This document shows positions 8,855 through 54,966 of a DNA stretch of 64,000 nt, one piece after another. The stretch lies in the NCBI GenBank assembly GCA_900318175.1, contig ONJQ01000001.1, positions 1 through 64,000 of the forward strand, in the 5' to 3' direction. The notes beneath the pieces were generated by a model. The model saw only the letters and a list, made by a program, of their open reading frames with translations, was not told the origin of the DNA and searched no databases. How positions within the stretch are numbered: position 1 is the first letter of the stretch; each line of letters starts with the position of its first letter. The DNA is from an uncultured Bacteroidales bacterium. GTDB taxonomy: Bacteria; Bacteroidota; Bacteroidia; Bacteroidales; P3. The position numbers and the translations under genes were made by a program.

Positions 8855-8963
8855 AACTCCACTCGCTGTTACACATTCTTTAATTCCGTCAAAAGTATTT
8901 ATCGTTTAAAAAAGGAAGAAATGTTAGAGAAATATTAGAGAACTGAGGAAGAAGGAGCGAAGG
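8855..8963 (-). repeat. Dispersed repeat R1, copy A
   Basis: One of five ~111 bp intergenic elements. Read on the minus strand, it begins CCTTCGCTCCTTC, continues with TCAGTTCTCTAATATTT and CATTTCTTCCTTTTTT, and ends near GCGAGTGGAGTT. It lies between the 3' end of msrA and the 5' end of the DUF5714 gene. The left half closely matches copy B; the right half is more diverged and contains the DUF5714 promoter box. Confidence 0.75.
8890..8897 (-). promoter_or_regulatory. Putative -7 box for the DUF5714 gene
   Basis: The minus strand reads TACTTTTG, about 129 bp before the upstream start and inside repeat copy A. Confidence 0.45.
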
Positions 8964-8986
8964 TAGGGCGAGCCGAGGCCGCAACA

Positions 8987-9943
8987 TCAAGGCAATAGGG
9001 CAGCCACCTCTTCGAGGAAATGGCGGTCGGCGTGGTCGAAATAGGCAAGGTGTTGGCTGTCAATGTCGAGCACCGCTACCACGTTGCCCTCTTGCTTGAC
9101 TGGAACCACAATTTCGCTGCGCGAGGCCGAACTACAGGCTATATGGCCGGGGAACTGCTCCACGTCCGGCACCATGAGGGTGCGGCGTTCCTTCCAGGCC
9201 GACCCGCAGACACCCTTGCCGAAGGCGATGTGCATGCAAGCCACAGGGCCCTGGAAGGGGCCGAGCACCAGTTCGTCCTGCACAACACGGTAGAAGCCTG
9301 TCCACCAGAAATGGAAAGCGTCGTGCAGCAGGGCGGCGGTGTTGGCCATGCGGGCAACGGAGTCCTTCTCGCCGTCGAGCAGGGAGCGCATCTGTTTCAA
9401 CGCCAGTCTGTACTGCTCGGCTTTTTGCAGGGTGCGGAGGTCGCGGGCTGCGCGGGCCTCGGCAAAAAGGGTCACGGGCAGGTGACAATAGCCGTTGGGA
9501 TTGGTTACGAGATAGTCCTGATGGTAGTCCTCGGCACGGAAGAAGTTGATGAGGGGCTCCACCTCGACCTGGAGGGGCTTGGAGTAGCGTTCGGCCTCGC
9601 GGTCCATGACCTGACGGATGAAGGGGAGGTCGTCGGGGTCGGTGTAGTAGATGCCCGTGCGGTAGCGCGTGCCGCGGTCCTCGCCTTGCTGATTCAGGCT
9701 GGTGGGGTCTATGGCCTTGAAATACATCTGCAGCAGAAAGTTGAGGCTGACACGCAGGGGGTCGAAACGGAGGTGGACGGTCTCGGCAAAGCCCGTGGTG
9801 TCGGTGTAGACCTGCTCGTAGGTGGGGTTGTCGGTATGGCCGTTGGCAAAGCCCACCTCGGTGAAAAGGACACCGTCAATCTGTTTGAAAAAATGCTCGG
9901 CGCCCCAAAAGCACCCAGCCGCGAGATAGAGATCTTTATCCAT
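8987..9943 (-). CDS. msrA: Bifunctional methionine sulfoxide reductase: MsrA fused to GAF-type free-Met-(R)-sulfoxide reductase
   Basis: A 318-residue two-domain enzyme. Residues 1-~165 are MsrA, which reduces protein or free Met-(S)-sulfoxide; it has the catalytic GCFWG motif (Cys11), a YHQDYL segment and a resolving Cys153 in NPNGYCH. After a ~20-residue helical linker, residues ~185-318 are a GAF domain of the fRMsr/MsrC type, which reduces free Met-(R)-sulfoxide: LGPFQGPVAC, GKGVCGSAW, GHIACSSASRSEI, VLDIDS. Its three cysteines (236, 246, 270) have the 10 and 24 spacing of Cys84, Cys94 and Cys118 in E. coli YebR. The fusion would reduce both diastereomers of free methionine sulfoxide in the cytoplasm. 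A TACTTTTG box lies 78 bp upstream. No frameshift is visible at the junction. Confidence 0.92.
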   Translation of the reverse strand: MDKDLYLAAGCFWGAEHFFKQIDGVLFTEVGFANGHTDNPTYEQVYTDTTGFAETVHLRFDPLRVSLNFLLQMYFKAIDPTSLNQQGEDRGTRYRTGIYYTDPDDLPFIRQVMDREAERYSKPLQVEVEPLINFFRAEDYHQDYLVTNPNGYCHLPVTLFAEARAARDLRTLQKAEQYRLALKQMRSLLDGEKDSVARMANTAALLHDAFHFWWTGFYRVVQDELVLGPFQGPVACMHIAFGKGVCGSAWKERRTLMVPDVEQFPGHIACSSASRSEIVVPVKQEGNVVAVLDIDSQHLAYFDHADRHFLEEVAALLP

Positions 9944-10020
9944 GGGTTATATTTTAATTGTTACAATGCACTATTTTTACTTCCTAAGCAAGAGGAATAA
10001 CTTCAATAATATTGATTTTG

Positions 10021-10028
10021 CAAAAGTA
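10021..10028 (-). promoter_or_regulatory. Putative -7 box for msrA fusion
   Basis: The minus strand reads TACTTTTG (TAnnTTTG), 78 bp upstream of the start codon in an AT-rich spacer. Confidence 0.6.
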
Positions 10029-10137
10029 CTAAAAAAAATCCACATTAGATAAAAAAACACACTCAAAGTAAGGTGATAAAACAGAGCATACTTCGACACT
10101 CGGATAAAAGAAAAGTGAGTATATGGGGAAAAAAACG

Positions 10138-10145
10138 TATATTTG
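10138..10145 (+). promoter_or_regulatory. Bacteroidota -7 box for the R-M operon
   Basis: TATATTTG lies 56 bp before the endonuclease ATG at 10201. It argues against the upstream in-frame start at 10174. Confidence 0.7.
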
Positions 10146-10200
10146 CAATCTGAAACTACACAAAGATTGACCATTGATTGGACTATCAAATAGGCTGCAG

Positions 10201-10869
10201 ATGAAGAATCAAGATTATGATACACTGATAAAAAAGGCTGTTAATGACTTTTGGGAAACTCGGAAAGTGCAAAAAGGAGTTCTCGCGGGTAAACAGCTGG
10301 ACTCTTTCATTGCACTATTGAGAAAAGTGGCAAAAGAATCTGGCGTTCCCAATGAATGCATCCATGAGAAAAACGGTCACGTGCCAGGTTACTTCCGCGC
10401 CACTAAGGAATGGGACATGGTTATTACTACCCCAAAAGGAAACCTTGCGGCAGCCATCGAATTGAAGTCACAGGTGGGTTCTTACGGGAATAACCTCAAC
10501 AACCGGGTAGAAGAGTCGATTGGTTCGGCAGAAGACTTCTGGACAGCTTTTAGGGAGAAGTCATTCACGAGTACACAGACACCTTGGTTGGGATACTTCA
10601 TTGTGGTGGGTGATGACGAAACGTCAAGACATCCTGTCAAAGTGAACAACCCTTTGTTCTCCGCCCGCAGAGAATTCGATGGAGCATCATATCTTGACCG
10701 ATACACTATTCTATGTCAAAGGTTGATATTAGAGCACAAATATAATGCAGTGGCACTATTGGCCACAGCCGATAAGGCGCATTACAGGTCACTTGCAGAG
10801 AGCATATCTGTAATATCATTCTTGCAATCATTCAAAGGATACCTGTCAGGGATTAAAGATGAGTTCTGA
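10201..10869 (+). CDS. Type II restriction endonuclease, PaeR7I (XhoI) family
   Basis: A 222-residue protein resembling R.PaeR7I, the CTCGAG-specific enzyme. Conserved stretches are EKNGHVPGYFRATKEWDMVI, the PD-(D/E)XK-type catalytic pair (D in EWDMVI, then AAIELKSQ), RVEESIGSAEDFW, and TPWLGYFIVVGDD. It should cut unmodified DNA as a homodimer in the cytoplasm. The gene overlaps the methyltransferase start by 11 bp and shares its promoter, a standard type II layout. Base composition is clearly AT-richer than the flanking genes, which points to acquisition by transfer. The specificity is inferred from family resemblance only. Confidence 0.88.
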   Translation: MKNQDYDTLIKKAVNDFWETRKVQKGVLAGKQLDSFIALLRKVAKESGVPNECIHEKNGHVPGYFRATKEWDMVITTPKGNLAAAIELKSQVGSYGNNLNNRVEESIGSAEDFWTAFREKSFTSTQTPWLGYFIVVGDDETSRHPVKVNNPLFSARREFDGASYLDRYTILCQRLILEHKYNAVALLATADKAHYRSLAESISVISFLQSFKGYLSGIKDEF

Positions 10870-12469
10870 GGAGGCTTTTTACGGACTGAGGAAAAACGGC
10901 AAGGCTCATGGAGATGTGTTTACTCATCCCGATGTTGTCGAGTACATGCTGGATTTGAGTGATTATAGAGCCGAGCGCAACCTGTCGGCTGTCACAGTAA
11001 TGGAACCTTCATGCGGAGATGGAGCCTTTTTGATAGCCATAACACATCGACTAAAAGAGTCGGCTCTGCTTTACGGTTTCGACCTCGACCAAGCATACCA
11101 CAAGAATATCATTGCAATGGATATCGACCCTGTCAAAATCATCCGCTGTGTTGACAGGATGAAGCAATTATTTCCTGAAATCAATAATCCAGAAGACAAG
11201 ATAATTGAAGGGGACTATTTATTAACATCGCTCCCTCCAGTTGACATCGTTATAGGAAATCCGCCATACATCAGATACGAGAATATACCCGACACAAAAT
11301 TTGAGGAATACAAACAGAGATTCTCTACATTCTTTTACCGAGCAGATATCTATGTTTTGTTTTACGAGCATTCACTTAAGCAGCTAAAAAGCAACGGTAA
11401 GCACTGCTTTATCTGTTCAAACAGATGGATAAAAGGCTATTATGGAAAAAAAATACGCAGATTGATTGCTCAAAACTATCATATCAATTACTTGATTGAT
11501 ATGGAGAGAGCTGATGCATTCACAGAGAGTGTGCATGCATACCCTTCCATCACCCTCATTACTAATGAAACTCTTTCCGGAAACCTGTTATACGGGCAGA
11601 CATCCTCAGTGGAGCAATTGCCCAACATTTGTTTCAAACCATTAGTCCATCCCGTGGACGAAAACTGGAACACGATGTTTCCAACAATTAATGATGTACA
11701 ACCGCTTCCTACTATTGAAGAACAAGGATTTCGTATTGGCATAGGGGTTGCGACTGGCGCTGACAGGGTATTTATCTCAAAATGTCTGAAGGGGTTGATA
11801 GAGGACGAATTGCTAATACCAGCAATTAACGCACACGATTTAAAGAACAATACCCTGCAATGGGATGAGCGATATTTACTGAATCCATACACAGCCAATG
11901 GTTCATTGATTAACTTATCAAGATACCCTAAATGTCAGAACTATTTAGAAGCCAATCGGGCCAAATTGTCATCCCGTCACATTTCAAAAAACAATCCTAA
12001 TAAATGGTATGCAACCATTGACCGAATCAAGCCGGAACTACAGCACACACCCAAGATACTGCTACCAGACATGACCAGCAATGAATTCATCTTTGTAGAT
12101 GAAGGGAAATACTACCCTTTGCACAACATTTATTACATCGTAGGAAGAAGTGTAAAAGAACTGAAAGTGCTGTCGTCTATACTGATGTCTGACCATGTCA
12201 GAAGTCAGTTGGATTGCGTCACAAACCACATGAATGGAGGGTATGCACGCTGGCAAAGCCAACATTTGAAGAAGCTTAGATTACCCGATATCAATCTAAT
12301 TACTGAAGAAGAGATGTCTTTAATAATACAATGCTATGACAGACATGACATTGCGTCCATTAATTCAATTGTAGACCATATTGTAAACAAACAAATAAAC
12401 CATAAAGAACAAAACGTTCACAAACACCATATTCCAGTACAACAGACTATAGCATTTAACTTCGCCTAA
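10859..12469 (+). CDS. Adenine-specific DNA methyltransferase of the PaeR7I-like R-M system
   Basis: A 536-residue N6-adenine methyltransferase (M.PaeR7I is of similar size). SAM motif I is VMEPSCGDGAFLIAI near residue 50, and catalytic motif IV is NPPY in VDIVIGNPPYIRYENI near residue 130. A C-terminal target-recognition region follows with typical elements such as ILLPDMTSN and a late GGYARWQSQHLKKLRLP. It protects the host site that the upstream endonuclease cuts. The ATG at 10859 lies within the end of the endonuclease gene in another frame, giving translational coupling. It has the same AT-rich composition as its partner. An intact frame suggests an active system. Confidence 0.9.
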   Translation: MSSEEAFYGLRKNGKAHGDVFTHPDVVEYMLDLSDYRAERNLSAVTVMEPSCGDGAFLIAITHRLKESALLYGFDLDQAYHKNIIAMDIDPVKIIRCVDRMKQLFPEINNPEDKIIEGDYLLTSLPPVDIVIGNPPYIRYENIPDTKFEEYKQRFSTFFYRADIYVLFYEHSLKQLKSNGKHCFICSNRWIKGYYGKKIRRLIAQNYHINYLIDMERADAFTESVHAYPSITLITNETLSGNLLYGQTSSVEQLPNICFKPLVHPVDENWNTMFPTINDVQPLPTIEEQGFRIGIGVATGADRVFISKCLKGLIEDELLIPAINAHDLKNNTLQWDERYLLNPYTANGSLINLSRYPKCQNYLEANRAKLSSRHISKNNPNKWYATIDRIKPELQHTPKILLPDMTSNEFIFVDEGKYYPLHNIYYIVGRSVKELKVLSSILMSDHVRSQLDCVTNHMNGGYARWQSQHLKKLRLPDINLITEEEMSLIIQCYDRHDIASINSIVDHIVNKQINHKEQNVHKHHIPVQQTIAFNFA

Positions 12470-12475
12470 CTTATA

Positions 12476-12874
12476 CTAACCTTTTGTAGTAGCAGTAGGG
12501 CTGGATGGGTTGGTGTGCAGGTATTCGTTGCATTTGGATTCGGCCTTGGCTTTGATTTCGGGGGTGATGCAGTCGTGAAGCACTTTGACAACGTAGAGGA
12601 GGGCGAGGAGGTCGTCGACAAAGCCGGTGCCGGGAAGGAAGTCGGGAATGAGGTCGATGGGGAGGATGAAGTAGCCCAGCACCCCGACAATGAGGCGTTT
12701 GTGCTTCAATGGGATATGGGCGTCGGTGAGCATATAGTAGAGCAGCAGCACGTTGTAGATCACCTTACGGCCAGCCTTGGCAGCAACCGATTTGAGCTTG
12801 GATAAGAGGGAGTGGTCGTCGTAGTGGCGGCCATACTTCTCTATGTTTTGTGGTACGAGTGCGTTTTGTGACAT
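12476..12874 (-). CDS. YkvA/DUF1232-family membrane protein
   Basis: A 132-residue protein with the DUF1232 signature: YNVLLLYYMLTDAHIPLKHK, then GVLGYFILPIDLIPDFLPG and FVDDLLALLYVV. The motif YFILPIDLIPDFLPG, a hydrophobic hairpin with conserved Pro-Asp, defines the family. Members are small membrane-associated proteins without a proven function. It converges with the methyltransferase gene (only a few bases between stops) and is GC-rich like the core genome, so the R-M insertion boundary lies here. The C-terminus is a low-complexity Ser/Thr/Pro tail. Confidence 0.85.
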   Translation of the reverse strand: MSQNALVPQNIEKYGRHYDDHSLLSKLKSVAAKAGRKVIYNVLLLYYMLTDAHIPLKHKRLIVGVLGYFILPIDLIPDFLPGTGFVDDLLALLYVVKVLHDCITPEIKAKAESKCNEYLHTNPSSPTATTKG

Positions 12875-13108
12875 GTACTGATGGCTTTGAGAGTTGTTAC
12901 TGAACGGATGGGGTTGGCGTGATTTGCATCCTATCTTTTTTCAACCGATGTAATAACTGCAAAAAGGAGGTTTTAGTATGTGAGGTGAACAATTGTGTTG
13001 GCAGAAAGGGCTATCCATCACCCTGCCAATCTCAAAAAAAGTTGTATCTGGAAAAGGCTATCGCAAAACAGCATAATATATACTTTTAATTGAAATCCAG
13101 CAGAGACC

Positions 13109-13116
13109 TACTTTTG
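13109..13116 (+). promoter_or_regulatory. Orphan -7 box upstream of a terminator
   Basis: TACTTTTG with a TTG element at 13090-13092, giving a 19 bp offset, which fits a Bacteroidota promoter. No coding gene follows on this strand. Confidence 0.5.
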
Positions 13117-13135
13117 CCACTCCGCACATCAAGAG

Positions 13136-13169
13136 AAACGGCGCACCATGCGGTACGCCGTTTTCTTTT
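13136..13169 (+). terminator. Terminator-like hairpin behind the orphan promoter
   Basis: Stem AAACGGCG/CGCCGTTT (13136-13143 with 13156-13163) plus an inner ACC/GGT pair, followed by a TTTTCTTTT tract. Read on the minus strand it would follow no minus-strand gene, because xerD ends downstream of it at 13233. Confidence 0.6.
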
Positions 13170-13232
13170 CGCAGAACTAATGAAGATGTGTTAATGTGTG
13201 AATCAATTCAAGGATTCCCGAAATAGCACATT

Positions 13233-14156
13233 CTAATGTTTCTTGTAGTGGGGGTGATATGTGCTGATGGTGTCGCGGAGGTATTGGCGGGAGAGGTGGG
13301 TGTAGATCTCAGTGGTGGTGAGACTTTCGTGGCCCAGCATCTCCTGCACGGCACGCAGGTCGGCACCGTTCTGCACCAGTTCCGTGGCGAAGCTGTGGCG
13401 CAGGCTGTGGGGCGACACGCGTTTCTTTATGCCCGCCTCCTCCGCGGCCTGCTTGATAAATTGGAACACTGCCACGCGCGTCAGCCTGTGTCCCCGCAGA
13501 TTGAGGAATACATACAACTCCTCCCCCGGCTGGATGGTCAACTGGCTCCGCTGATAGAGGATATAATCCTGCACCAACTTCAGCGCACGGCTGTTGATGG
13601 GCACCCAACGCTCCTTGTTGCCCTTTCCCACCACCTGCAGCATCTGCTCTTCGGCATAGATGTTGGAGAGTTTCAGGTTCACCAGTTCGGATACACGCAG
13701 CCCGCAACCATACAGCACCTCCACCATGACATAGTTGCGATCCTCGCCGGGTTTGCTGCGATTGAACGTCTTCTGCATGGCCTCAATGTCCTCGTCGGTG
13801 AGCACATCGGGCAGATGCTCCGGGCGCGTGGGCATTTCGAGGAAATCGGCAGGATTGTCCTTCAAGAGATCCTCCTGCACAAGCATGCGGAAAAAGGCAC
13901 GCCAGCCCGAAATGATACGGCACTGGGTCGTGGGGGCCACATCCACCTCGGCCAGCAAGGCGGTGACCTGGCGCAGATGGTCAGGAGTAATTTCAGTAGG
14001 CTGCAGACCCAACGGCTCTGCCCAACGGCTCAGGTGGTGGACATCCCGCAGGTAGGCCAGAACAGTATTGTCCGACAGACCCCGTTCAAGCCGCAGCCGC
14101 AGCTCGAAATCCTTGGTGAAATCTATCCAAGCGGACTGTCCCCCTGTAGTGTCCAC
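13233..14156 (-). CDS. xerD: Tyrosine site-specific recombinase XerD/XerC
   Basis: A 307-residue Xer recombinase. The N-terminal SAM-like core-binding domain (FELRLRLERGLSDNTVLAYL) is followed by the catalytic domain with R in YGCGLRVSELVNL, K in VVGKGNKERWVPI, the HSLRHSFATEL box and LGHESLTTTEIYTHL with the H and nucleophile Y. Length and end (YHPHYKKH) match the chromosomal XerD that resolves chromosome dimers at dif with FtsK, rather than a mobile-element integrase. The start is a GTG; no suitable ATG is in frame. It follows mtgA by 19 bp and is probably co-transcribed. XerC versus XerD cannot be settled from one copy. Confidence 0.9.
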   Translation of the reverse strand: MDTTGGQSAWIDFTKDFELRLRLERGLSDNTVLAYLRDVHHLSRWAEPLGLQPTEITPDHLRQVTALLAEVDVAPTTQCRIISGWRAFFRMLVQEDLLKDNPADFLEMPTRPEHLPDVLTDEDIEAMQKTFNRSKPGEDRNYVMVEVLYGCGLRVSELVNLKLSNIYAEEQMLQVVGKGNKERWVPINSRALKLVQDYILYQRSQLTIQPGEELYVFLNLRGHRLTRVAVFQFIKQAAEEAGIKKRVSPHSLRHSFATELVQNGADLRAVQEMLGHESLTTTEIYTHLSRQYLRDTISTYHPHYKKH

Positions 14157-14175
14157 GCTCTCCCTTGGTCAATGA

Positions 14176-15039
14176 TTATTTACTGCGATGCTCCAGCATC
14201 CAGATGGCGAAATCGAAAAGGTTCTCCTCCTCCACCATCTTGATGTACTTCTTGTTCTTGCCTTCGACCATCACAATCTTGTCATCCTCACGCTTGGCCA
14301 CGGAGCCATAGGTGCCCATGCGTCCCTGAATGGTGGAAGCGCGGCGGGACAGGTAGCCCGACGGGCGGCCAGGGTTGCTCCTCAGCGGATGGGGCAGGCA
14401 GGCAGCCAAGAGGGCCGCCTCGCGGCGCGTCAGTTCCTTGGCTGAATGGTTGAAATAGTGCTGTGCAGCGGCCTCGCAGCCGTAGATGCCGTCGCCGAAC
14501 TCAATGATGTTCAGGTAGCATTCCATAATGCGACGTTTGCCCCACACTTTCTCTATCAGCACCGTGTAATAAGCCTCCAGAGCCTTGCGCCACATGCTGC
14601 GTGTGTGCGGCAGGAAGCAGTTCTTGGCCGTCTGCTGGCTGATGGTGCTGGCACCGGCCTGTTTGCCTCCGCGCTGGTTTTTCAGGTACACCTCTTTCAT
14701 GCGGTGGATGAAAAAGCCGTGGTGGTACATGAACAAGCCACCATCCTCCGAGATGGCCACGGCATTGATAAGATGCGGCGAGATGTTGTCAATACTCACA
14801 TAGTCGCGCTCAAAGACAACCTTGCGGTCCTTCTCGCCCATCTGGTCGAAAAAGCGCTCCACCATCAGGGGCGTGAGCGGTGGATTGAACACCGAGCAGA
14901 AGAGCACCTGAAACAGCGAGAAACCAAACAGCGCAACCACCGTCACCCAGCAGAAGCGCCACACCTTGCCGAAGAACGAGAGCTGTCTCCAGCGTTTCAT
15001 CCCCTTGCGGCGTTTTGTATTATTCTTTTTCTTTGCCAT
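14176..15039 (-). CDS. mtgA: Monofunctional biosynthetic peptidoglycan transglycosylase MtgA
   Basis: A 287-residue GT51 glycosyltransferase. A basic N-terminus (KKKNNTKRRKGMKRW) and one membrane anchor at about residues 30-50 precede the GT51 domain. The domain has the first catalytic motif AISEDGGLFMYHHGF, then GGKQAGASTISQQTAKN, RKALEAYYTVLIEKVWGKRR, and ECYLNIIEFGDGIYG with the second catalytic Glu. It polymerises lipid II into glycan strands at the outer face of the inner membrane. Residues between the catalytic ED and the HHG carry one more residue than the form I recall for most members (EDxxFxxHHG). A C-terminal ~55-residue tail follows the core. A TACTTTTG box lies 64 bp upstream, and xerD follows 19 bp downstream. 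Confidence 0.93.
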   Translation of the reverse strand: MAKKKNNTKRRKGMKRWRQLSFFGKVWRFCWVTVVALFGFSLFQVLFCSVFNPPLTPLMVERFFDQMGEKDRKVVFERDYVSIDNISPHLINAVAISEDGGLFMYHHGFFIHRMKEVYLKNQRGGKQAGASTISQQTAKNCFLPHTRSMWRKALEAYYTVLIEKVWGKRRIMECYLNIIEFGDGIYGCEAAAQHYFNHSAKELTRREAALLAACLPHPLRSNPGRPSGYLSRRASTIQGRMGTYGSVAKREDDKIVMVEGKNKKYIKMVEEENLFDFAIWMLEHRSK

Positions 15040-15102
15040 TGCAATATAATCTACAATCCTTTAGCAGCCTTTTCCAGCCGCTAAAAACCTAAAAAATGGT
15101 TG

Positions 15103-15110
15103 CAAAAGTA
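15103..15110 (-). promoter_or_regulatory. Putative -7 box for mtgA-xerD
   Basis: The minus strand reads TACTTTTG, 64 bp before the mtgA start codon. Confidence 0.6.
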
Positions 15111-15140
15111 CTATTTTTTTGTCAAATAAATAAAAAAATG

Positions 15141-15148
15141 TATATTTG
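15141..15148 (+). promoter_or_regulatory. -7 box for gap
   Basis: TATATTTG lies 54 bp before the gap ATG, in an AT-rich spacer divergent from mtgA. Confidence 0.75.
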
Positions 15149-15201
15149 TAGACTAAATTTTTTAGATACAAAACACATAAATATCTTAAATACAAAACAA
15201 T

Positions 15202-16209
15202 ATGGCAAAAGTAGCAATCAACGGTTTCGGCCGTATCGGAAGAATGTCTTTCCGCGCCATGCTTGACCATCCCGAGTTGGACATCGTGGCCATAAACGAC
15301 TTGACAAGTGCAGATACCCTCGCATATCTGTTCAAATACGACTCCGTGCATGACAACTTCGAGGGAGAAGTGCACGCCGAAGGCGACTGCATCGTAGTCA
15401 ACGGCAAGAAGGTGAAAATCTATGCCGAGCGTGACCCGCAGAACCTCCCCTGGAAAGAACTGGGTGTCGACATCGTCGTCGAATCCACCGGCCTCTTCAA
15501 AAAGCGCGACCAGATGATGAAACACATCGCCGCTGGTGCCAAGAAGGTCATCCTCACCGTTCCCGCCAGCAAGGCCGAGGACGTGGACGCCACCGTCGTG
15601 ATGGGTGTCAACGACAACGTGCTGACCAAAGAGATGCAACTCGTCTCCAACGCCAGCTGCACCACCAACTGCCTTGCCCCCGTGGCCAAGGTCCTGAACG
15701 ACAAATTCGGCATCAAGCGCGGCTTGATGAACACCATCCACAGCTATACCAACGACCAGAAGATTCTCGACCAGCCCCACAGCGACCTCCGTCGTGCCCG
15801 TGCTGCCGCCGTCTCCATCATCCCCACCTCCAGTGGTGCCGCCAAGGCCGTTGGCCTGGTCATCCCCGAACTGAAGGGCAAGCTGGACGGCTTCGCCATG
15901 CGCGTCCCCACTCCCGACGGCTCTGTTGTTGACCTCACCGCCGAGCTCAACTGCACCGTTACCAAGGAGGAAATCAACGCCGCCATCAAGGCTGCTGCCG
16001 AAGGCCCCATGAAGGGTGTCCTCCAATACATCGAAGACCCCGTGGTCAGCGTCGACATCATCGACAACACCCACAGCTCCATCTTCGACAGCCTGCTCAC
16101 CCAGGTCATGGATGGCAACTTCGTGAAAGTGGTTAGCTGGTATGACAACGAGAAGGGTTACAGCACCCGCGTTGGCGACCTGGCTGCCAAACTGGCCACC
16201 CTGCTCTAA
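15202..16209 (+). CDS. gap: Type I glyceraldehyde-3-phosphate dehydrogenase
   Basis: A 335-residue GAPDH, the standard length. The NAD site MAKVAINGFGRIGR is at the very N-terminus, and the catalytic segment SNASCTTNCLAPVAKV holds the nucleophilic Cys near residue 152. Phosphate-site residues lie in SYTNDQKILD and RRARAAAVSIIPTSSGAAKA, and WYDNEKGYSTRVGDLA sits near the end. It interconverts glyceraldehyde-3-phosphate and 1,3-bisphosphoglycerate in glycolysis and gluconeogenesis. It is a single-gene unit with a TATATTTG promoter and a strong terminator 45 bp after the stop. Codon use is strongly biased to C-ending codons, as expected for a highly expressed gene. Confidence 0.97.
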   Translation: MAKVAINGFGRIGRMSFRAMLDHPELDIVAINDLTSADTLAYLFKYDSVHDNFEGEVHAEGDCIVVNGKKVKIYAERDPQNLPWKELGVDIVVESTGLFKKRDQMMKHIAAGAKKVILTVPASKAEDVDATVVMGVNDNVLTKEMQLVSNASCTTNCLAPVAKVLNDKFGIKRGLMNTIHSYTNDQKILDQPHSDLRRARAAAVSIIPTSSGAAKAVGLVIPELKGKLDGFAMRVPTPDGSVVDLTAELNCTVTKEEINAAIKAAAEGPMKGVLQYIEDPVVSVDIIDNTHSSIFDSLLTQVMDGNFVKVVSWYDNEKGYSTRVGDLAAKLATLL

Positions 16210-16253
16210 ACAAACAAAGCATTGCCCAGCGCAATGCACACTGAATAATTGAT

Positions 16254-16294
16254 GAGAGTTGAGGGCGTCCAGCCACCCTCAACTCTCTTTTTTT
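16254..16294 (+). terminator. Rho-independent terminator of gap
   Basis: Perfect 12 bp stem (16254-16265 with 16276-16287) with a 10 nt loop, followed by seven T. Confidence 0.92.
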
Positions 16295-16335
16295 AGTATC
16301 TTTCACTTGTTCCACTACTAACACTAATAAGAATC

Positions 16336-17082
16336 ATGCTTTTACAAGACAAGGTAGCAATCATTACCGGGGCCACCCGCGGCATAGGCCGTGCCATTGC
16401 CCTCCGCTTTGCACAGGAGGGTTGCAACATCTCCTTCTGTGGCCGCAGCCGCAGCCCCCAAATGGAGTCCGTCGAACAGGAACTTGCCGCTCTCGGCGTG
16501 CAGGCCAAAGGCTATGCCGTCGACGTGGCCAACATGGAGAGCACCAAGCAGTACGTTGCCGACACCCTCAAAGACTTCGGCCACATTGACATCCTCATCA
16601 ACAATGCCGGCATCACCGACGACGCCGCCATCAAGCGCATGACCGAGCAGCAATGGGACAATGTCCTCAGCAACGACCTCAAATCCGTCTTCCTCATGAC
16701 GCAAGCCGTCCAGCCCGCCATGTGGAAACAGGGATTTGGCAGCATCGTCAACATCAGCTCCGTGGTGGGCATTGGCGGCAACGCCGGTCAAGCCAACTAC
16801 GCCGCCGCCAAAGCCGGCATCATCGGCTTCACCAAAGCCGCCGTCAAGGAACTCGGCGCACGCAACATTCGTATGAACGTCGTGGCTCCAGGCTTCATTG
16901 TCACCGAAATGACCGGCGACATACCCGAGCAGCTGAAGACCTACTGGCAAACCCGCATCCCCCTGCGCCGCCCCGGCACCCCCCAGGAGGTGGCCAACGC
17001 ATGCCTCTACTACGCTTCAGAGTTGGGCAGCTACAACACCGGCGACGTGATGCACCTGTGCGGAGGAATGGAGGACGCATGA
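16336..17082 (+). CDS. fabG: 3-oxoacyl-ACP reductase FabG-like SDR
   Basis: A 248-residue short-chain dehydrogenase. The Rossmann motif is TGATRGIGRA, followed by NNAGI, the catalytic Ser in NISSVVG and the YAAAKAG Tyr-Lys pair, with APGFIVTEMT after. It fits FabG, which reduces 3-oxoacyl-ACP with NADPH in fatty-acid elongation. The last segment (ASELGSYNTGDVMHLCGGMEDA) keeps the FabG-like Gly-rich C-terminus but departs from the common YITGQ form. The promoter is not clear-cut; the nearest box is TATCTTTC. The stop codon overlaps a possible ATG for the next gene, so the pair may be coupled. Another SDR substrate cannot be excluded. Confidence 0.85.
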   Translation: MLLQDKVAIITGATRGIGRAIALRFAQEGCNISFCGRSRSPQMESVEQELAALGVQAKGYAVDVANMESTKQYVADTLKDFGHIDILINNAGITDDAAIKRMTEQQWDNVLSNDLKSVFLMTQAVQPAMWKQGFGSIVNISSVVGIGGNAGQANYAAAKAGIIGFTKAAVKELGARNIRMNVVAPGFIVTEMTGDIPEQLKTYWQTRIPLRRPGTPQEVANACLYYASELGSYNTGDVMHLCGGMEDA

Positions 17083-17105
17083 CTACACTCAAACCTCATC
17101 TACCC

Positions 17106-18041
17106 ATGAAAAATAGTATCTTACGCTTCCCCCTCGCGGAGGTAGTGCTGCCCTTCCTTGTTGCAGCGGCGATGCTTACCCTCAGCGCCTGCAACACTTC
17201 CGCCTCCAGCAACCCAGAGCAAACCGTTGCCTACACCGACGACTACCAACACACCGTCCAAGTGCCGGTCAACCCCACCCGCATAGTGAGCACATCGCCG
17301 GCAGTGACCGAAATCATCTACGCCCTCAAAGCGGAGAACCTTCTGATAGGCCGCACTGACTATTGCATCTACCCTCCCGAGGCCCAGTCCGTCCCCTCCA
17401 TCGGGGGCATCAGCAACCTCAATGTAGAGAAGATCGTCTCGCTCAATCCCGACCTTGTAATCAGTGGCTCGATGATTCCGCAGAAAAGCTCCCTGCAGCT
17501 TGAGCAGATGGGCGTGCCCATTGTCTGCGTCATTGAGAAACACCGTTTCGACGGTCTGTATGAGAACATCTCCAAGATCGGCCAATTGGTAGGCCGCACG
17601 CATGAAGCCGACAGCCTGGTCGGGCTGATGAAGTCGCAACTGCAGTCGCTCACCCAGCAACTCGCCGACAGCGACACCTGCCGCCCCAGCGTCTACTACG
17701 TGGTGGGCTTCGGCCCCTCAGGCAACTTTACCGCCGGCGGCAACTCCTTCATCAACGACCTTATCAACATGGCCGGAGGACGCAACATAGCAGCTGACAT
17801 AACAGGCTGGAGCTACAGCCTCGAAGCACTGATGCAAGCCAACCCGGACTATATCATCATACGTCGGGAAGACTCCGCAGCCTTCTGCCGCACAAACCCA
17901 TACAACCGATTAGACGCTGTGAAACAAGGCCGGGTTATCGGTCTGGAGAGTGGCACGATAGACCTCCAGGTGCCCCGCAACCTGCAAGCCATCCGACTCC
18001 TCAGCCAACGCCTGAAGCCAACACCGCATCAAGACCGCTGA
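17106..18041 (+). CDS. BtuF-like periplasmic substrate-binding lipoprotein
   Basis: A 311-residue binding protein of the TroA/BtuF helical-backbone type. The SPII signal has lipobox LTLSAC. Then come the typical opening RIVSTSPAVTEIIYALKAEN, VPSIGGISNLNVEKIVSLNPDLVI, a long linking helix, and GGRNIAADITGWSYSLEALM with NPDYIII. Such proteins deliver cobalamin, haem or siderophores to BtuCD-type ABC importers. No permease or ATPase gene is adjacent, so partners must be elsewhere. An alternative start at 17079 (ATG overlapping the fabG stop, behind a purine-rich stretch) would lengthen the signal peptide by nine residues; 17106 gives the more normal signal. Substrate unknown. Confidence 0.82.
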   Translation: MKNSILRFPLAEVVLPFLVAAAMLTLSACNTSASSNPEQTVAYTDDYQHTVQVPVNPTRIVSTSPAVTEIIYALKAENLLIGRTDYCIYPPEAQSVPSIGGISNLNVEKIVSLNPDLVISGSMIPQKSSLQLEQMGVPIVCVIEKHRFDGLYENISKIGQLVGRTHEADSLVGLMKSQLQSLTQQLADSDTCRPSVYYVVGFGPSGNFTAGGNSFINDLINMAGGRNIAADITGWSYSLEALMQANPDYIIIRREDSAAFCRTNPYNRLDAVKQGRVIGLESGTIDLQVPRNLQAIRLLSQRLKPTPHQDR

Positions 18042-18064
18042 GGGAATAGTCGACCTCAACACTT

Positions 18065-18174
18065 CCTTCGGTTGTTATAGGTCAGTTGTTCCTCAGTTGT
18101 TCCTCATTTGTTCCTCTTTCATTGGATAAATGCACCCATAAGTGAGGATGGTGACAGCAAGAAGGAGCGAAGAT
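18065..18174 (+). repeat. Dispersed repeat R1, copy D
   Basis: A ~110 bp element between convergent genes. It starts CCTTCGGTTG, carries three successive GTTCCTCA/GTTCCTC units at 11 bp spacing, then TTTCATTGGA, and ends AGAAGGAGCGAAG, the inverted match of the start seen in copies A and B. Confidence 0.78.
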
Positions 18175-18233
18175 GCAGCGAGGCTGGAATGAAGAACGAA
18201 GGCGGACTGAGCCACCCGACAGGCAATCCACCA

Positions 18234-18270
18234 AAAACGAAAAAAGGGAGACCGCACGGCCTCCCTTTAT
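18234..18270 (-). terminator. Terminator of the S41/barrel operon (possibly bidirectional)
   Basis: Hairpin with AAAGGGAG/CTCCCTTT arms and GC-rich inner pairs. On the minus strand it runs into TTTTTTCGTTTTT, just past the last stop of the S41 operon. Confidence 0.8.
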
Positions 18271-18286
18271 CATATAATGCAATGGG

Positions 18287-19627
18287 TCAGTGTCCTACGC
18301 GGATGAAACGAATGGCACGATCCAACTGGGTGTCCGTTCCTTGATCCAGCTTGCTGCGGTTATATAGCACTTCGATGTCAGGCTGCACGCCTACACCCTC
18401 AACGTCGCCATGGTTGTTGTCGACCATGTGGAAAGTGCTTGTATAGACGTAGAAGGAGAAGTCATTCTTGTAGGGGTCGGGACCATTCTCGTAATAATCA
18501 GGGTCGCCAAAACAGCCGGAGTAGTAAAGGTCATGGTAGACGTTGGACGCATTGCCGGCGTAGAGACCACCCACCGCGCCGTAGGTGCGCTCGCCAATGA
18601 AGGTGCCATTGGGCAGGGATTTGATGAGCATGGTGGCCAGTTCGGCGCAGCTGCCGGAATAGACATCGGACAGCACTACAATGGGCTTGGGGGTTTTAAG
18701 GTGCTTGGTGCGCGGGCAGTCAATCCAGCTTTCGGACCACTCGCTGTAGTCCAAGCGACCGTAGCCCTCCTTGACGCGTGTATAGCCGATGAGGGTGGGA
18801 GTCTGCGCCAGCGAGCCTATGATGGGGGCAAGGTCGGCAACACTGCCACCGCCGTTGCCACGGAGGTCGATGATGATTCCGACAACAGAGTCGTTGTTGG
18901 CGTAGGAGGCTCCCTCCATGCTGATGCCCTCATGGTAGCGGGGGCCGTAGAAGGCTTTGGCGGGTGCCTGAGCGCTGACAGCGTCGGGATAGGCACCGGA
19001 GCCATACTCATACTTCTGGTGCATTTCCACCATGTTGAAATCGGTGAAGCGGAAATAGGCAATCATCTCCCCTTCCTTGGCTCCTTCTATGAGGCAGAAA
19101 TATGATCCTGGGATGTTGTATGTGGTATTGGGATTGTACTCAATAAGGGTGCCTGGGATGGCTTTTTTGCGCAGTACTTTGAGCTGTTTGTTACGTTCAT
19201 CAATCGGGTTGGTGGGGTGCTCGTAGTCGTTTTTGCCGGGCCGGACGTAGGCTTGGCACTGGCCGTGGGGTGTGCCTTTGGGTGAATAAAAAATGCCCGT
19301 CAGGTGATGGTCCAGCAATCCCTCAAAAAGGCCCTCATAGGCAGCGTAGTACTCGTAGATGGTGACAGGACGGTTGGCGGGGCGTGAGTCAAATTCGGCA
19401 AAGACGGGTTTAAACTCTTCGTAACGTTTGTCCCAGTCCACGGTGTCGCGATCCCAAAAGACGTAGCCTTGGTCCATGCCGGCCCAGACGGTCTCGAATT
19501 GTTGAGAGTAGGTCTTGCAGACGCGGTGGTTTGGGTTGCCTTTGTTTTCCAACGGTTCTTTGCGGCATGATGCGAAACCGGCCAATATGGCCATAAGGAC
19601 GAAGGCAAGGGTTTTGTAATGTGTCAT
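18287..19627 (-). CDS. S41-family peptidase lipoprotein (copy B)
   Basis: A 446-residue exported protease. The SPII signal ends at FASC (Cys21). An N-terminal helical cap (QQFETVWAGMDQGYVFWDRD) precedes the S41 core: GIIIDLRGNGGGSV, TRVKEGYGRLDYSEW, and the catalytic region SDVYSGSCAELATMLIKSLP, where the Ser after GSC/YSG is the likely nucleophile. The core ends with FIGERTYGAVGG and the conserved GVGVQPDIEV near the end. No PDZ domain is evident. It is the last gene of a four-gene set made of two barrel-protease pairs, and it is clearly paralogous to the protease at 20429-21727. It is probably anchored in the outer membrane; the substrate is unknown. Confidence 0.88.
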   Translation of the reverse strand: MTHYKTLAFVLMAILAGFASCRKEPLENKGNPNHRVCKTYSQQFETVWAGMDQGYVFWDRDTVDWDKRYEEFKPVFAEFDSRPANRPVTIYEYYAAYEGLFEGLLDHHLTGIFYSPKGTPHGQCQAYVRPGKNDYEHPTNPIDERNKQLKVLRKKAIPGTLIEYNPNTTYNIPGSYFCLIEGAKEGEMIAYFRFTDFNMVEMHQKYEYGSGAYPDAVSAQAPAKAFYGPRYHEGISMEGASYANNDSVVGIIIDLRGNGGGSVADLAPIIGSLAQTPTLIGYTRVKEGYGRLDYSEWSESWIDCPRTKHLKTPKPIVVLSDVYSGSCAELATMLIKSLPNGTFIGERTYGAVGGLYAGNASNVYHDLYYSGCFGDPDYYENGPDPYKNDFSFYVYTSTFHMVDNNHGDVEGVGVQPDIEVLYNRSKLDQGTDTQLDRAIRFIRVGH

Positions 19628-19678
19628 ATACGATTGTAAAGAATTATGTTTTATGAATGATGGACTGCATGAAAGGGC

Positions 19679-20404
19679 TTAGAGCCAGTAGCTGATGCCA
19701 AATTGGGCAGCGACGGCGGTGTTGTAGCGGGGATTGAGGTTGGTCATGTATGGTTTTTGGATGTCGGTGGTGCTGTAGTACCAGCGAAGTTCGGCCCCTA
19801 CCTCAATGCGGTCAATGATAAGACTGCTGAGTCCTACACCCCAGGTGAAGCCCATCTCCTGGCGGTTGTCGCGCTTATCGTTGAATTCCCAGTCACTGTC
19901 GACATCGAAGTATCGGTGGTCGGAGAATGAGTAGGTGTTGCCGACGCGGTGGCTGCTGAGCCAGTAGCCCCAAAAACCACCCCCAAAGAGGTGTAATTTG
20001 ACAGCGCGCCCAACGGTGAATTTCACCTCCAAGGGAACGTTGATGTAGTTGTTGGTGGTCGTGGTGAAGAGGGAGTAGCGCAAATTGTAGTACTCAAAGA
20101 CGTGGTTCATGTGGTAATTTTTCTGTATCATCACAGCACCCGTGTTAAAGGAGAGCCATTTGAGGGGTGCGTAGCCGATACGGACACCGTAGACAGTACC
20201 AGTTTTGAACTTGTCAAAGCGCATATCGGTCATATAGACCATGTCGACACTGTGATAGTTGCGGTCCAATCCGGCGGTGATGCCAAAGGCCCAGTGGCGC
20301 AACCGTTTGGGAGGTTGCGCCACGGTGTCTTGGGCAGAGATGGCTTGTGGCCAAAAACTGACAACGCAAAGGATTGCGAGACAGAAGAGGTGGGATTTCT
20401 TCAT
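19679..20404 (-). CDS. PorT-like outer-membrane beta-barrel protein (copy B)
   Basis: A 241-residue protein with a signal peptide (MKKSHLFCLAILCVVSFWPQAISAQ). The small predicted eight-strand barrel has alternating aromatic strands such as WLSFNTGAVMIQKNYHMNHV and INVPLEVKFTVG, and its last residues are FGISYWL. It belongs to the general porT/OMP_b-brl family of Bacteroidota. It lies 24 bp after the S41 protease of pair A and 51 bp before the protease of pair B. A homologue of identical length opens the operon at 21845-22570. It may act as a membrane partner for the lipoprotein protease; that is inference from pairing. Confidence 0.78.
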   Translation of the reverse strand: MKKSHLFCLAILCVVSFWPQAISAQDTVAQPPKRLRHWAFGITAGLDRNYHSVDMVYMTDMRFDKFKTGTVYGVRIGYAPLKWLSFNTGAVMIQKNYHMNHVFEYYNLRYSLFTTTTNNYINVPLEVKFTVGRAVKLHLFGGGFWGYWLSSHRVGNTYSFSDHRYFDVDSDWEFNDKRDNRQEMGFTWGVGLSSLIIDRIEVGAELRWYYSTTDIQKPYMTNLNPRYNTAVAAQFGISYWL

Positions 20405-20428
20405 AGGTTGATGGGATTATTGCCAATA

Positions 20429-21727: not shown

Positions 21728-21844
21728 TCTGATTAGTTTTAAATTGTTGATTCTTTAATAATGAATTCGGTGATGCGATGTCGTGTCAATGGCCAATAAG
21801 TCCTTTAACGACTTTCTTATTAACTGATTAACACGTCCTCACAT

Positions 21845-22570: not shown

Positions 22571-22612
22571 AGTTTGAATTTGATGAATAATAAGGTTAAT
22601 GAAAATGTGAAA

Positions 22613-22671
22613 GAAAGTTGAGATTTGGTTGTGAAGACTGAACTATTTCTTACTTCCAAATCTCAACTTTC
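22613..22671. terminator. Long inverted repeat after pruA
   Basis: Perfect 16 bp arms (GAAAGTTGAGATTTGG at 22613-22628, inverse at 22656-22671) around a 27 nt loop, 10 bp past the pruA stop. On the minus strand T-rich sequence follows, so it may end the pruA transcript. The loop is longer than usual. Confidence 0.55.
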
Positions 22672-22680
22672 CGAAAGGTT

Positions 22681-25001: not shown

Positions 25002-25114
25002 CCTTCGCTCCTTTTAGGTCAGTTCTCTAATATTTGTTCCTCATTTCTTCCTTTTTCGGAGGGAAAACTAACCCCGACATGAGGGATAACGAAACAGCAA
25101 GGAGTGGAGCAAGG
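25002..25114 (+). repeat. Dispersed repeat R1, copy B
   Basis: A 113 bp element between convergent genes. It begins CCTTCGCTCCTTTTAGGTCA, then TCTCTAATATTTGTTCCTCA and TTTCTTCCTTTTTC, and ends AGCAAGGAGTGGAGCAAGG. Its ends are inverted, and it is the best match to copy A. Confidence 0.82.
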
Positions 25115-39788: not shown

Positions 39789-39900
39789 CCTTCGCTCGTT
39801 CTTCGTCAGTTTCCTAACATTTGTTCCTCATTTCTTCCTTTTTCATTGGAAAACTAATCCTACAAATGACCGAGAAAAAAACACCAAGGAGCGACGGAAG
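39789..39900 (+). repeat. Dispersed repeat R1, copy C
   Basis: A 112 bp element. It begins CCTTCGCTCGTT, continues CGTCAGTTTCCTAACATTTG, TTCCTCATTTCTTCC and TTTTTCATTGGAAAACTAATCC, and ends CAAGGAGCGACGG, the near-inverse of the start. Confidence 0.82.
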
Positions 39901-42161: not shown

Positions 42162-42177
42162 ATTCAGGATTTTGTTA

Positions 42178-43578
42178 TCATTGTTCTTGGTTTGATGTTG
42201 GGGTTCGCCGTTTGCGGAAGATGAAGAGTGCGAAGAGGAGGAAGGCCCCGGCAAGGATGCCGAGAGTGATGAGGCAGCTCTTGAAGCTTTGGGGACCGAA
42301 GCCCATGAGCAACAAGACGGGGAAGCCGAAAACGATGGCGGGGATGGTTTGGAGAACCAGATTGTTGGCAGCGGGAGTCTCAAACTTGGGGTCGATTTCA
42401 CGCAACAGAATCATACCGTTGCTGGCCGTGCCGGTGAGCATGCCGAACATGGAGAAGAAGCCTTCGTACTGGTAGTCGGGGTAAAGGCGACGGGCACAGG
42501 CGCGGACATAGACAAAGGTGGCAATGGCTCCCAACAGGCAGACCAGAACGAGGGGCAACCAAAGGCCGCGGAGGTTGTTGAAGTCGATGGCAGCGGTGCC
42601 AGCCACAATCATAAAGTCGAAACAGGTGCCAGCGATGCGGTCGAGCGTGAAGTTGTTGATATATTCGCGCTGCATCAGGTGGGTCTTTCTGAGCTTGTTG
42701 ATAATCACTTTCACCAACACACCCAGCAGGGTACCCCACAGGAAGTTGAAGCCCCATACCATGGGTTTGAGGGTCTTGGTGCCGAAGTTGCCGAGGTCGA
42801 GTTGCTCCACCCCGTACATGAGGAGGAACACCAAGGCGTAGACCATCAGCACAAGACATATCTGGACCGTCAACTTGTCGATAGACTCGGCATGGGGAAT
42901 CTCGTTGTCCGACTGGTAGTCGGACAGAGTATACTCTTCCTTGTAATCGCCCACCTGCCTTTTCAGTCTGCCCTTGCGGCGCAGGATGTTCATATATATC
43001 ACGCCCACAAGGCTGCCCACAATAAAGCCTGTTGCGGCAATGCTCAGTCCGAAGTCGGCACCGTGGAAGGCGATGCCCTGGCCCTCAGCCCAGTTGGAGA
43101 AGGTGACGCCGAAGTTGAGAGCCTGTCCGGGCCCTTGGCCATAGCCCATCGGGAGCAGGAGACCCGAAGCATAGAAGAACTCGCTGTTGTTCCACAGCAG
43201 GAAGAGCGGGATGGTGACCAGAAGGCCTACAAAGCCTTGGAGAATGTAGGTGCTTGCCGTCACGGCACCGGTTTCCACCACCTTCATGGTCGTGGTGGAA
43301 CTCTTGATTTTCTTATTCTTCAGAGCCATGGCTACGAAGCCGAGACCCAAAGCGTGATAGGTGATAATCTCCATGGAGGGTTTGTTGACCAACACGCTGA
43401 AAAAGCCGAAGGGTTTCAGACAAAGGATGAGCAACCCTGCCAACAAGGCCGAAGGGAGTAGGCTGCGCTTGAAGAGAGGGACATTGCAACGGATGAGATT
43501 GGCAACCAGCATGGCCACAACGATAATGAAGAATTGTATCAGCCACTGCCAGGCGGACATGGATGCAAAGGAGGTCAT
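42178..43578 (-). CDS. gltS: Sodium/glutamate symporter (GltS/ESS family)
   Basis: A 466-residue inner-membrane carrier with about 10-12 transmembrane helices in two halves, as in the ESS family. The re-entrant glycine-rich signatures are LLPMGYGQGPGQALNFGVTF in the first half and SMFGMLTGTASNGMILLREI in the second. The central cytoplasmic loop is hydrophilic (RRKGRLKRQVGDYKEEYTLS). It should take up glutamate with sodium. The gene sits just ahead of the barrel gene (16 bp apart), on the same strand. The annotation as glutamate-specific rests on the family; related acids are possible. Confidence 0.87.
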   Translation of the reverse strand: MTSFASMSAWQWLIQFFIIVVAMLVANLIRCNVPLFKRSLLPSALLAGLLILCLKPFGFFSVLVNKPSMEIITYHALGLGFVAMALKNKKIKSSTTTMKVVETGAVTASTYILQGFVGLLVTIPLFLLWNNSEFFYASGLLLPMGYGQGPGQALNFGVTFSNWAEGQGIAFHGADFGLSIAATGFIVGSLVGVIYMNILRRKGRLKRQVGDYKEEYTLSDYQSDNEIPHAESIDKLTVQICLVLMVYALVFLLMYGVEQLDLGNFGTKTLKPMVWGFNFLWGTLLGVLVKVIINKLRKTHLMQREYINNFTLDRIAGTCFDFMIVAGTAAIDFNNLRGLWLPLVLVCLLGAIATFVYVRACARRLYPDYQYEGFFSMFGMLTGTASNGMILLREIDPKFETPAANNLVLQTIPAIVFGFPVLLLMGFGPQSFKSCLITLGILAGAFLLFALFIFRKRRTPTSNQEQ

Positions 43579-54066: not shown

Positions 54067-54082
54067 GCGCCCGGCATACCTT

Positions 54083-54128
54083 ATGGCAGGGATGGGAGAC
54101 ACCGCTCCCCCATCCCTGCCATTTTTTT
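54083..54128 (+). terminator. Rho-independent terminator of the AsmA gene
   Basis: 14 bp perfect stem (ATGGCAGGGATGGG and its inverse) followed by seven T. Confidence 0.93.
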
Positions 54129-54252
54129 GTGCACCCCATGCCATATTCCTCCAAAAAAGTGCACCTAACGTCCTAAAAGGAAGGAGCGGAGCGGCCTACA
54201 TCCTTCTGAAAAATGAGGGAGTGCAAGAAAAAACTTGTCGCACCCTCTTTTT

Positions 54253-54397
54253 AGGGGACTTCAATAAATTGTCTCGAAAAGGGAAACGCTCAATACCCCT
54301 GCACTTATAGCGTGGGGTACATCAAGCAAATCCATCCACCGTGTCGGAGACAAGCGCTCTCAAAAAATGAATAAATAGAGCCAACTTTTATTCGACC
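54253..54397 (+). repeat. Element R2, copy 2
   Basis: A ~145 bp match to the hpt leader at 49842-49987, here upstream of a decayed surface-protein fragment. The hairpin around CCCCT...GGGG is kept only in part. Confidence 0.72.
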
Positions 54398-54398
54398 T

Positions 54399-54785
54399 CC
54401 CTTATCAAACAACACGTACAAGCCTTACGCCGACCACTCGGACCGCCTGCCGGTGGCCTATGTGGGTGACTACGGAGCCGACGTCTTCACCTATCAGACC
54501 CTCTTGCTGCAAGCACGCGGCAGTTCAGAATGGGTATGGCTGCAGAGAGAATTCGGCATCAATGCCCTCAACGACGTTACCGGCACCAAGACCACCCTGT
54601 CCGACAACGCCTCCAACGGCACTGCCCACATAGTGAGCAGCGACGGGAACCTCAAAGTCTACCTGCCCCCCAGTGTGGGCAACCCCGACACCAGCCTTGC
54701 CAGACCCCTTTCCCAATCCAAACTCAACCCGTCGTCCAGGCGCACCGTCCCCCGGGCCGCCAGCCACCATTCCCATCTCGCATAG
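54399..54785 (+). pseudogene. Remnant of a secreted surface-protein gene, fragment 1
   Basis: An open stretch without a plausible start. It reads NNTYKPYADHSDRLPVAYVG, then DYGADVFTYQTLLLQARG and DGNLKVYLPPSVGNPD, which look like part of a large surface or adhesin protein. After ~54720 the codons become low-complexity and unlike protein. It directly follows element R2. Together with fragment 2 it suggests a gene lost by deletion, broken by repeat copy E at 54855-54966. Confidence 0.5.
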
Positions 54786-54854
54786 CCCCTGCCCGAACAA
54801 CAGCAGCCCCGTCTATCGGCAGCCCACTGCTCCGAGCTGTTCCTTTTTTTTGCC

Positions 54855-54966
54855 CTTCCTCCACTCCTTTTTCCTCAGTTGTTCCTCATTTGTTCCTCAT
54901 TTGTTCCTTTTTCATTGGACAACTACTCCAAGAAACGACCTACCTCGTTACGCGAAGGAGCGAACC
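54855..54966 (+). repeat. Dispersed repeat R1, copy E
   Basis: A 112 bp element. It begins CTTCCTCCACTCCTTTTTCC, has three 11 bp TTCCTCAKTTG-type units in tandem, then CCTTTTTCATTGGACAACTA, and ends GCGAAGGAGCGAACC. It sits between the two surface-protein fragments. Confidence 0.8.

Follow-up and report, generated by a model that had tools for sequence, protein, structure and literature searches.

Intergenic arrays of inverted 11-bp units in a Bacteroidales genome, tentatively read as phased palindromic sites acting at the DNA level

A 64,000-nucleotide stretch of an uncultured Bacteroidales bacterium (contig ONJQ01000001.1 of assembly GCA_900318175.1, positions 1 to 64,000 of the forward strand; called the window here) carries five copies of an intergenic repeat of about 110 bp, which we call R1. 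What kind of element is this repeat, and what does it do where it lies? A first-pass annotation of the window had proposed either a small mobile element, like a miniature inverted-repeat transposable element (MITE), or a structured element with a role at 3′ ends. We find that each array is made of about ten 11-bp units, set in two arms that are inverted about one base pair, with a terminal unit at the ends (CCTTCGCTCSTT...AASGAGCGAAGG). Our preferred reading, to which we give a probability of roughly 0.4, is that R1 represents, in one species, a family of phased palindromic arrays found in Bacteroidales and acting at the level of DNA. New relative to the earlier annotation are the 11-bp lattice, the inversion of the arms about one base, the words that differ by species and how widely the design occurs.

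All copies are numbered here from the first C of CCTTCGCTCCTT as position 1, which puts the dyad axis at position 55. The five copies were re-located by alignment and profile search at the places annotated before, and they are the only members in the window among the R1 profile matches listed. Open reading frame (ORF) context confirmed that three of them lie between convergent genes and one between the msrA and DUF5714 genes. The fifth, which may lie in a decayed gene as annotated, stands between an AsmA-like and a NUDIX ORF. The length had been given as 109–113 bp. It is near-constant indeed, but the real spans are 109 bp in four copies and 108 bp in one, the annotated ends having been loose. 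The copies, followed by the parts of copy 4, are:

8856..8963, minus strand: R1 array copy 1, 108 bp, with a one-base gap relative to the family; axis base 8909; a DUF5714 ORF on one side and an msrA-GAF ORF on the other
18065..18173, plus strand: R1 array copy 2, 109 bp; axis base 18119; between convergent Peripla_BP_2 and S41 peptidase ORFs
25002..25110, plus strand: R1 array copy 3, 109 bp; axis base 25056; flanked by convergent ORFs
39789..39897, plus strand: R1 array copy 4, 109 bp; flanked by convergent ORFs
54858..54966, plus strand: R1 array copy 5, 109 bp; axis base 54912; flanked by plus-strand AsmA-like and NUDIX ORFs
39789..39800, plus strand: left terminal unit of copy 4, positions 1–12, CCTTCGCTCGTT, assigned from sequence and column counts
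39801..39843, plus strand: left arm and axis base (39843) of copy 4, positions 13–55, 11-bp units with TT every 11 bp
39844..39885, plus strand: right arm of copy 4, positions 56–97, frame inverted, sequence weakly conserved past position 67
39886..39897, plus strand: right terminal unit of copy 4, positions 98–109, AAGGAGCGACGG

The left arm has a frame that returns with each 11-bp step (TCAGTT, ACATTT, TCATTT, TTTTTC). Between the frame blocks stand 5-bp words: TTAGG or CTTCC, then CTCTA, GTTCC and CTTCC. Compared with itself across 79 copies, the left arm reaches an identity of 0.58 at lag 11 and of 0.55 at lag 22. The value is 0.40 or less at the other lags from 5 to 23 and 0.26–0.29 in the flanks; the copies are thus more than T/C-rich sequence. 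In the right arm the frame is inverted, and sequence conservation is slight past position 67. The terminal inverted repeats seen by the first-pass annotation are real, with positions 1–12 set against 98–109. Among 37 aligned copies from the genome that holds the window (the own genome, G000), 34 have equal length and three are one base shorter.

R1 had been described as a dispersed family, and the whole genome bears this out. The own genome measures 2.9 Mb in 70 contigs. With one copy as the query, BLAST returned 41 rows, 40 of them (the query included) at an E value of 2.1e-12 or better. Alignment A1 was drawn mainly from BLAST and pattern matches, and the R1 profile was built from 37 own copies. 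The profile search yielded at least 150 rows. As a palindromic site is matched on either strand, these reduce to at least 102 separate places. A count of the opening CCTTCGCTCCTT in this genome gave 11+16, and the same pattern read backwards gave 0+0.

The same design is present in relatives. At E≤0.01, R1 matches 44 of 99 genomes of the genus, including its own. The unit words elsewhere are TTCTCCCATAT in G017, TTCTTCAACAG in G064, TTGTCCAGTTG in G045 and G069, TTCTTCGATTG in G029 and TTGTACGGTAT in G042, and many species have arms that form near-perfect palindromes. From 12 genomes, 20 palindromic arrays (three of the rows being own copies) could be aligned without gaps over 99 columns about a one-base axis. 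TT stands at columns 17–18, 28–29 and 39–40, and the mirror AA at 60–61 and 71–72. The rows of this alignment (A2; 20 of 26 candidates) were picked for palindromicity, so that cross-species pairing statistics are biased towards pairing. R2, a pairing model built on A2, matches 67 of 119 genus genomes at E≤0.001, many with at least 34 rows; this count includes the 12 training genomes, which match by construction. Five of the 294 other genomes of the order match at E≤1e-4, and on inspection by eye their rows have the lattice.

The period was also looked for with a palindrome detector. It tried lags of 6–17 and called a palindrome periodic at a lag identity of at least 0.45. Lag 11 was found in 9 of 9 periodic palindromes of G029 (80 kb), 7 of 7 of G230 (313 kb) and 5 of 7 of G376 (400 kb), where the G230 and G376 stretches had been picked for holding R2 matches, and 4 of 7 and 2 of 5 periodic palindromes, respectively, are those matches. 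Taken together, G036 (six R2 rows), G041 and G014 (no R2 rows in either), all of the genus, gave lag 11 in 2 of 13. Markov controls contained two palindromes in total, neither of them periodic. A scan of named genomes with one core pattern, in which very near records were possibly excluded, returned one match. It is RGIG5033, a Bacteroidales metagenome-assembled genome (MAG) from roe deer rumen, with a locus that shares 93.6% identity, over 1569 bp, with a locus of the own genome.

G040, the nearest species identified within the genus, allowed places and words to be compared copy by copy; its loci are 82–96% identical to the own loci. We examined 21 of its 37 scored R1 rows. Eighteen of these copies stand at places common with the own genome (13 matched on both flanks, five on one), and the remaining three may match further own places. 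The place of copy 4 is also occupied in G040, with different 5-bp words. For window positions 7500–27400, a DNA search of G040 gave no match, a weak negative given a completeness of 74%. Words were compared in 15 of the 18 pairs; L201, L202 and L220 were set aside as probable recent transfers or for poor alignment. For the three inner words of the left arm, identity is 0.53 in orthologous pairs and 0.51 in cross-species pairs that are not orthologous; within species, the values are 0.74 (own) and 0.62 (G040). The right half is 0.53 identical between orthologs vs 0.40 between non-orthologous cross-species copies, and the left terminal unit 0.82 vs 0.74. Inner words thus go with the species and the remainder with the locus. 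Within a species the inner words change in concert, that is, they show concerted evolution. The span is mostly kept at the same time: the right terminal unit has an equal offset in 13 of 15 ortholog pairs, with a right half that is merely 0.53 identical. Of 27 alignable adjacent flanks of 109 bp, 22 show 1–7 gap events and five show none.

To explain concerted change at kept places, a DNA-binding partner acting in trans, active conversion between copies, or both are needed. In the mechanism that we propose, each helical turn over some 110 bp would offer the same contact, a TT step with its neighbours, on the same side of the DNA, which makes a phase-locked binding platform the likeliest role. 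The putative partner would be a multimeric sequence-specific DNA-binding protein or a recombinase, covering the array along its full length, axis to ends. Copies would mostly be inherited at fixed intergenic places. Their inner 5-bp words would be renewed in concert in each species, through copy-to-copy conversion, through selection that tracks a drifting partner, or through both. Our confidence in this mechanism is moderate. The mostly kept span over a nearly free right half, the strict helical period and the joint change of words are hard to explain by a decaying transposon or by an RNA hairpin that does not pair.

Concerted change at about 100 dispersed loci that keep their place, near-constant span and helical phase is unusual in bacteria. 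The family also marks a group that, in this analysis, is represented by draft genomes only, the roe deer rumen MAG among them. A larger claim, which we consider unlikely, would make R1 part of a chromosome-wide protein–DNA system: at least 100 phase-locked arrays per genome would serve a predicted fast-evolving DNA-binding assembly, whose specificity shifts between species and drags its sites along. If true, this would be a bacterial counterpart of satellite–centromere or PRDM9-type co-evolution.

Several observations count against phased arrays that are inherited in place and bound by a partner. The span is not absolutely fixed, as the three shorter copies show, and the own copy L124 is one whole unit short; L124 and L201, near-identical loci, differ by one 11-bp unit. 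The offset of the right terminal unit differs in two of the 15 ortholog pairs, by one base in L002/L217; the other is L052/L206, where a competing match lies 5 bases off. The word at positions 13–17 keeps some locus signal (0.48 in orthologs vs 0.31 otherwise). The G040 copies were selected because they resemble the own profile, and a single flank supports the match at 5 of the 18 shared places. R2 finds no match in 52 of the 119 genus genomes. Homogeneous populations such as that of G029 also fit the recent spread of a mobile element, and the near-perfect hairpins of other species (z about −20) would also suit a function in single-stranded DNA or RNA. At the place of copy 2, the gene pair is present and the array absent in 11 more distant relatives, judged by eye in 11 of the 29 loci fetched from other genomes.

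The arrays could instead be mobile hairpins of the REPIN type, a serious rival even if we hold it to be somewhat improbable. A putative transposase acting on single-stranded DNA in folded form would copy the array to new intergenic sites, with a dominant master sequence in each species, and old copies would stay behind. Known REP, BIME and REPIN elements come with RAYT transposases, according to the available parts of the sources (PMC3733652, PMC3116915, PMC8049555). As far as those parts describe them, R1 is like these elements in being a short dispersed intergenic palindrome of high copy number that can form hairpins, is in some cases species-specific and persists by vertical descent. The hairpins are strong in other species and weak in the window copies. 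Besides the at least 102 own places, arrays occur about every 14 kb over 480 kb of G029, and near-perfect palindromes with terminal inverted repeats, as well as the empty copy 2 place in the 11 relatives, would be expected of such an element. The same holds for an identical array in G000 and G048 (L072:1501-1617 and L117), the near flanks of which differ by one base, although this pair itself suggests a recent transfer or mis-binning.

The 11-bp units with a one-base axis, and inner words that change in place, set R1 apart from REP and REPIN elements as described in the same parts of the literature. In orthologs the inner words track the species with no locus signal, and the span is mostly kept. 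A scan for target-site duplications of 2–9 bp at offsets 0–40 (80, 30 and 10 copies in three genomes, with exact ends uncertain) gave none that stood out; the greatest excesses concerned 2- and 3-mers, at offsets that bear no relation to one another. No transposase family is among the few recurring Pfam families beside the own copies. Among the first 100 of 202 listed places in G017, array halves are paired within about 60 bp, apart from two singles, and none are spaced by kilobases as they would be around an autonomous partner. The Y1 transposase domain (PF01797, E≤0.001) was not detected in the array-rich genomes G017, G063 and G064, which are 82, 96 and 83% complete, and a RAYT link was rejected on this ground. 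The own genome has one Y1 gene (C55:75809), with the nearest R1 place listed for that contig 7 kb off. G069 has three, one of them with an array at a distance of about 1.4 kb, the array being found with a detector that is blind to weakly palindromic arrays. This array (L233:70-168) is a perfect 11-bp palindrome with the units TTGTCCGCTTG and ATGTCCGCTTG. By inspection, the consensus foot has neither a GTAG nor a CGTC tag, and GTAGG occurs inside some arms. The array population resembles REPINs but fails the tyrosine-transposase test. The MITE-like reading of the first-pass annotation is weakly supported: the terminal inverted repeats and the absence of copy 2 in 11 relatives speak in favour; the lack of a target-site duplication that stood out in the scan, the lack of a linked transposase and the mostly shared places speak against it. 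A phage or plasmid origin was likewise rejected: three unit patterns had 0 matches in viral_contigs, and neither a G029 array searched against phages nor an own copy searched against plasmids found a match, all with few unit words covered.

A satellite-like molecular drive is the other serious rival, and we rate it as clearly improbable. Palindromes would break or stall replication and be repaired from other copies; the centre would be homogenised most and the outer units would decay, with no benefit to the cell. Homogeneity was examined in 480 kb of contiguous G029 sequence. A 94-base template was matched there without gaps by 35 arrays, at 77–94 positions each, eight of them perfectly; no array matched at 56–76 positions. 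In 20 G029 copies (high-scoring rows, the 480-kb set being less selected), the core is fully conserved and conservation drops outward from the axis in 11-bp steps. By eye, the outer unit GTRTCAASRCC of G029 resembles GTACCAACACC of G045 and G069, while the inner units are different, as if the outer shells were older than the inner units. Two orthologs of G069 and G045 with the same words (L307/L318) have 2 differences in 99 core positions, fewer than in their flanks. Drive would account for the outward decay, the likeness of the outer units, the loss of one unit between L124 and L201 and the common places with changed inner words.

The arms of the G029 arrays do not bear such repair out, however. 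In 15 less perfect arrays, compared by eye, the differences are mostly one-armed and often swaps of whole units. Mirrored differences between the arms number 1 vs 1.02 expected, and being at chance they give no sign of arm-to-arm copying, which was rejected. Array richness is independent of the SbcD gene. SbcD scored over the cut-off in 17 of 38 array-rich genomes and in 39 of 81 others (Fisher p 0.84), where richness was judged from up to 34 scored rows per genome, with both strands counted; loss of SbcCD as a permissive factor was rejected. Nor does drive explain why span and frame are kept although the right half diverges.

The suggested role at 3′ ends is not supported as a rule. By a crude ORF rule, 80 copies comprise 41 in tandem, 20 in convergent and 11 in divergent contexts, six within an ORF and two undecided. 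Copy 2 adjoins a separate terminator-like hairpin, which is present in relatives too. No neighbouring gene stands out by recurrence: in the 140 of 153 adjacent ORFs that were scanned, 142 Pfam families were found, none in more than three proteins, and the first 25 families listed belong to ordinary genes. The structured-RNA proposal also lacks support in the own genome, where 37 copies show no covariation. RNAalifold gave no pairs on these copies, and a symmetric structure has 72.4% of its cells paired vs 72.3% after shuffling, with no clear excess of double changes. The fold z-scores of the five window copies are +0.3, −2.05, −1.98, −2.69 and −1.5, and Rfam at gathering scores has 0 matches in the window. 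Eleven base pairs are about one turn of A-form RNA. A transcribed hairpin at RNA 3′ ends, serving as a terminator, an mRNA stabiliser or an RNase III target, would suit this unit length, the perfect hairpins of G029 and G069, the three window copies between convergent ORFs and the compensatory unit changes in one G069/G045 ortholog pair (L309/L095), but it is highly unlikely in view of pair counts that equal those of shuffles, window folds between z +0.3 and −2.7, the common tandem and divergent contexts and the separate hairpin of copy 2.

The first-pass annotation knew of no described family that matches R1, and our literature search agrees: in what it could reach, which included few subscription papers, there is no description of 11-bp phased palindromic arrays in Bacteroidales. 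Two repeats of the order come near. BrickBuilt, a MITE of Porphyromonas gingivalis, consists of 23-nt direct repeats over 84–991 nt, with 19 copies in ATCC 33277, and has terminal inverted repeats such as GAGACCTTTGCA that are close to IS5-family ISPg ends (PMC4596501, available part). It shares with R1 the intergenic location, short tandem units between small inverted-repeat ends and the gain or loss of whole units. R1 has 11-bp units and, by inspection, other ends, and its inverted second arm is not described for BrickBuilt in that part of the paper. PINSR of Prevotella intermedia is 188 bp long and has 177 and 184 copies, which according to its authors have no terminal inverted repeats; about three quarters of its places are common to two strains (PMC4755523, available part). 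Like R1, it is an intergenic, high-copy repeat of Bacteroidales with largely shared places. As far as that description goes, its length and the lack of terminal inverted repeats set it apart.

The parC site of plasmid R1 has about ten 11-bp iterons bound by ParR; it is a plasmid centromere and its repeats are direct. The likeness to the present arrays would lie in about ten 11-bp units and a sequence-specific protein, which is predicted here. The difference is that of about 100 chromosomal inverted arrays vs a plasmid centromere with direct repeats. ParR specificity is the subject of PMC9426499, a source available in part. TAACTGA heptamers form direct repeats, up to 169 per genome and in a few Bacteroidetes too, and in the main genome described they lie mostly just upstream of start codons (PMC4679880, available part). 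They are intergenic repeat sets like R1; unlike it, they have a period of 7 bp and are direct.

Some further arrays and junctions were seen. In G014, which has no R2 match, the detector scored as a palindrome what is a direct tandem array of 11-bp units (L385:1018-1128; ACTCGTATACA / ACCGTATACAA), possibly a related form. A palindrome of 8-bp units (TTTAGTCG-like) in G087 (L075:370-500) has another lattice. At the place of copy 2 in G094 (L167), one of the 11 relatives, the intergenic region beside the S41 gene holds two terminal-unit-like sequences head to head (GGAGCGAAGGACTATCTTTGCTCC) with no interior. On the MAG contig JAFVCA010000010.1 (L039:1-200), an array is cut near position 68 and joined to unrelated DNA, in which a repeat of at least 20 bp occurs twice, 102 bp apart; the junction is an insertion at the array or an assembly join. 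In the window itself, positions 40804–41500, inside the ORF at 40806–42401, are 86–94% identical at the DNA level in eight other genomes (G027, G099, G006, G094, G017, G021, G101 and G102), where other parts of the query are 72–80% identical.

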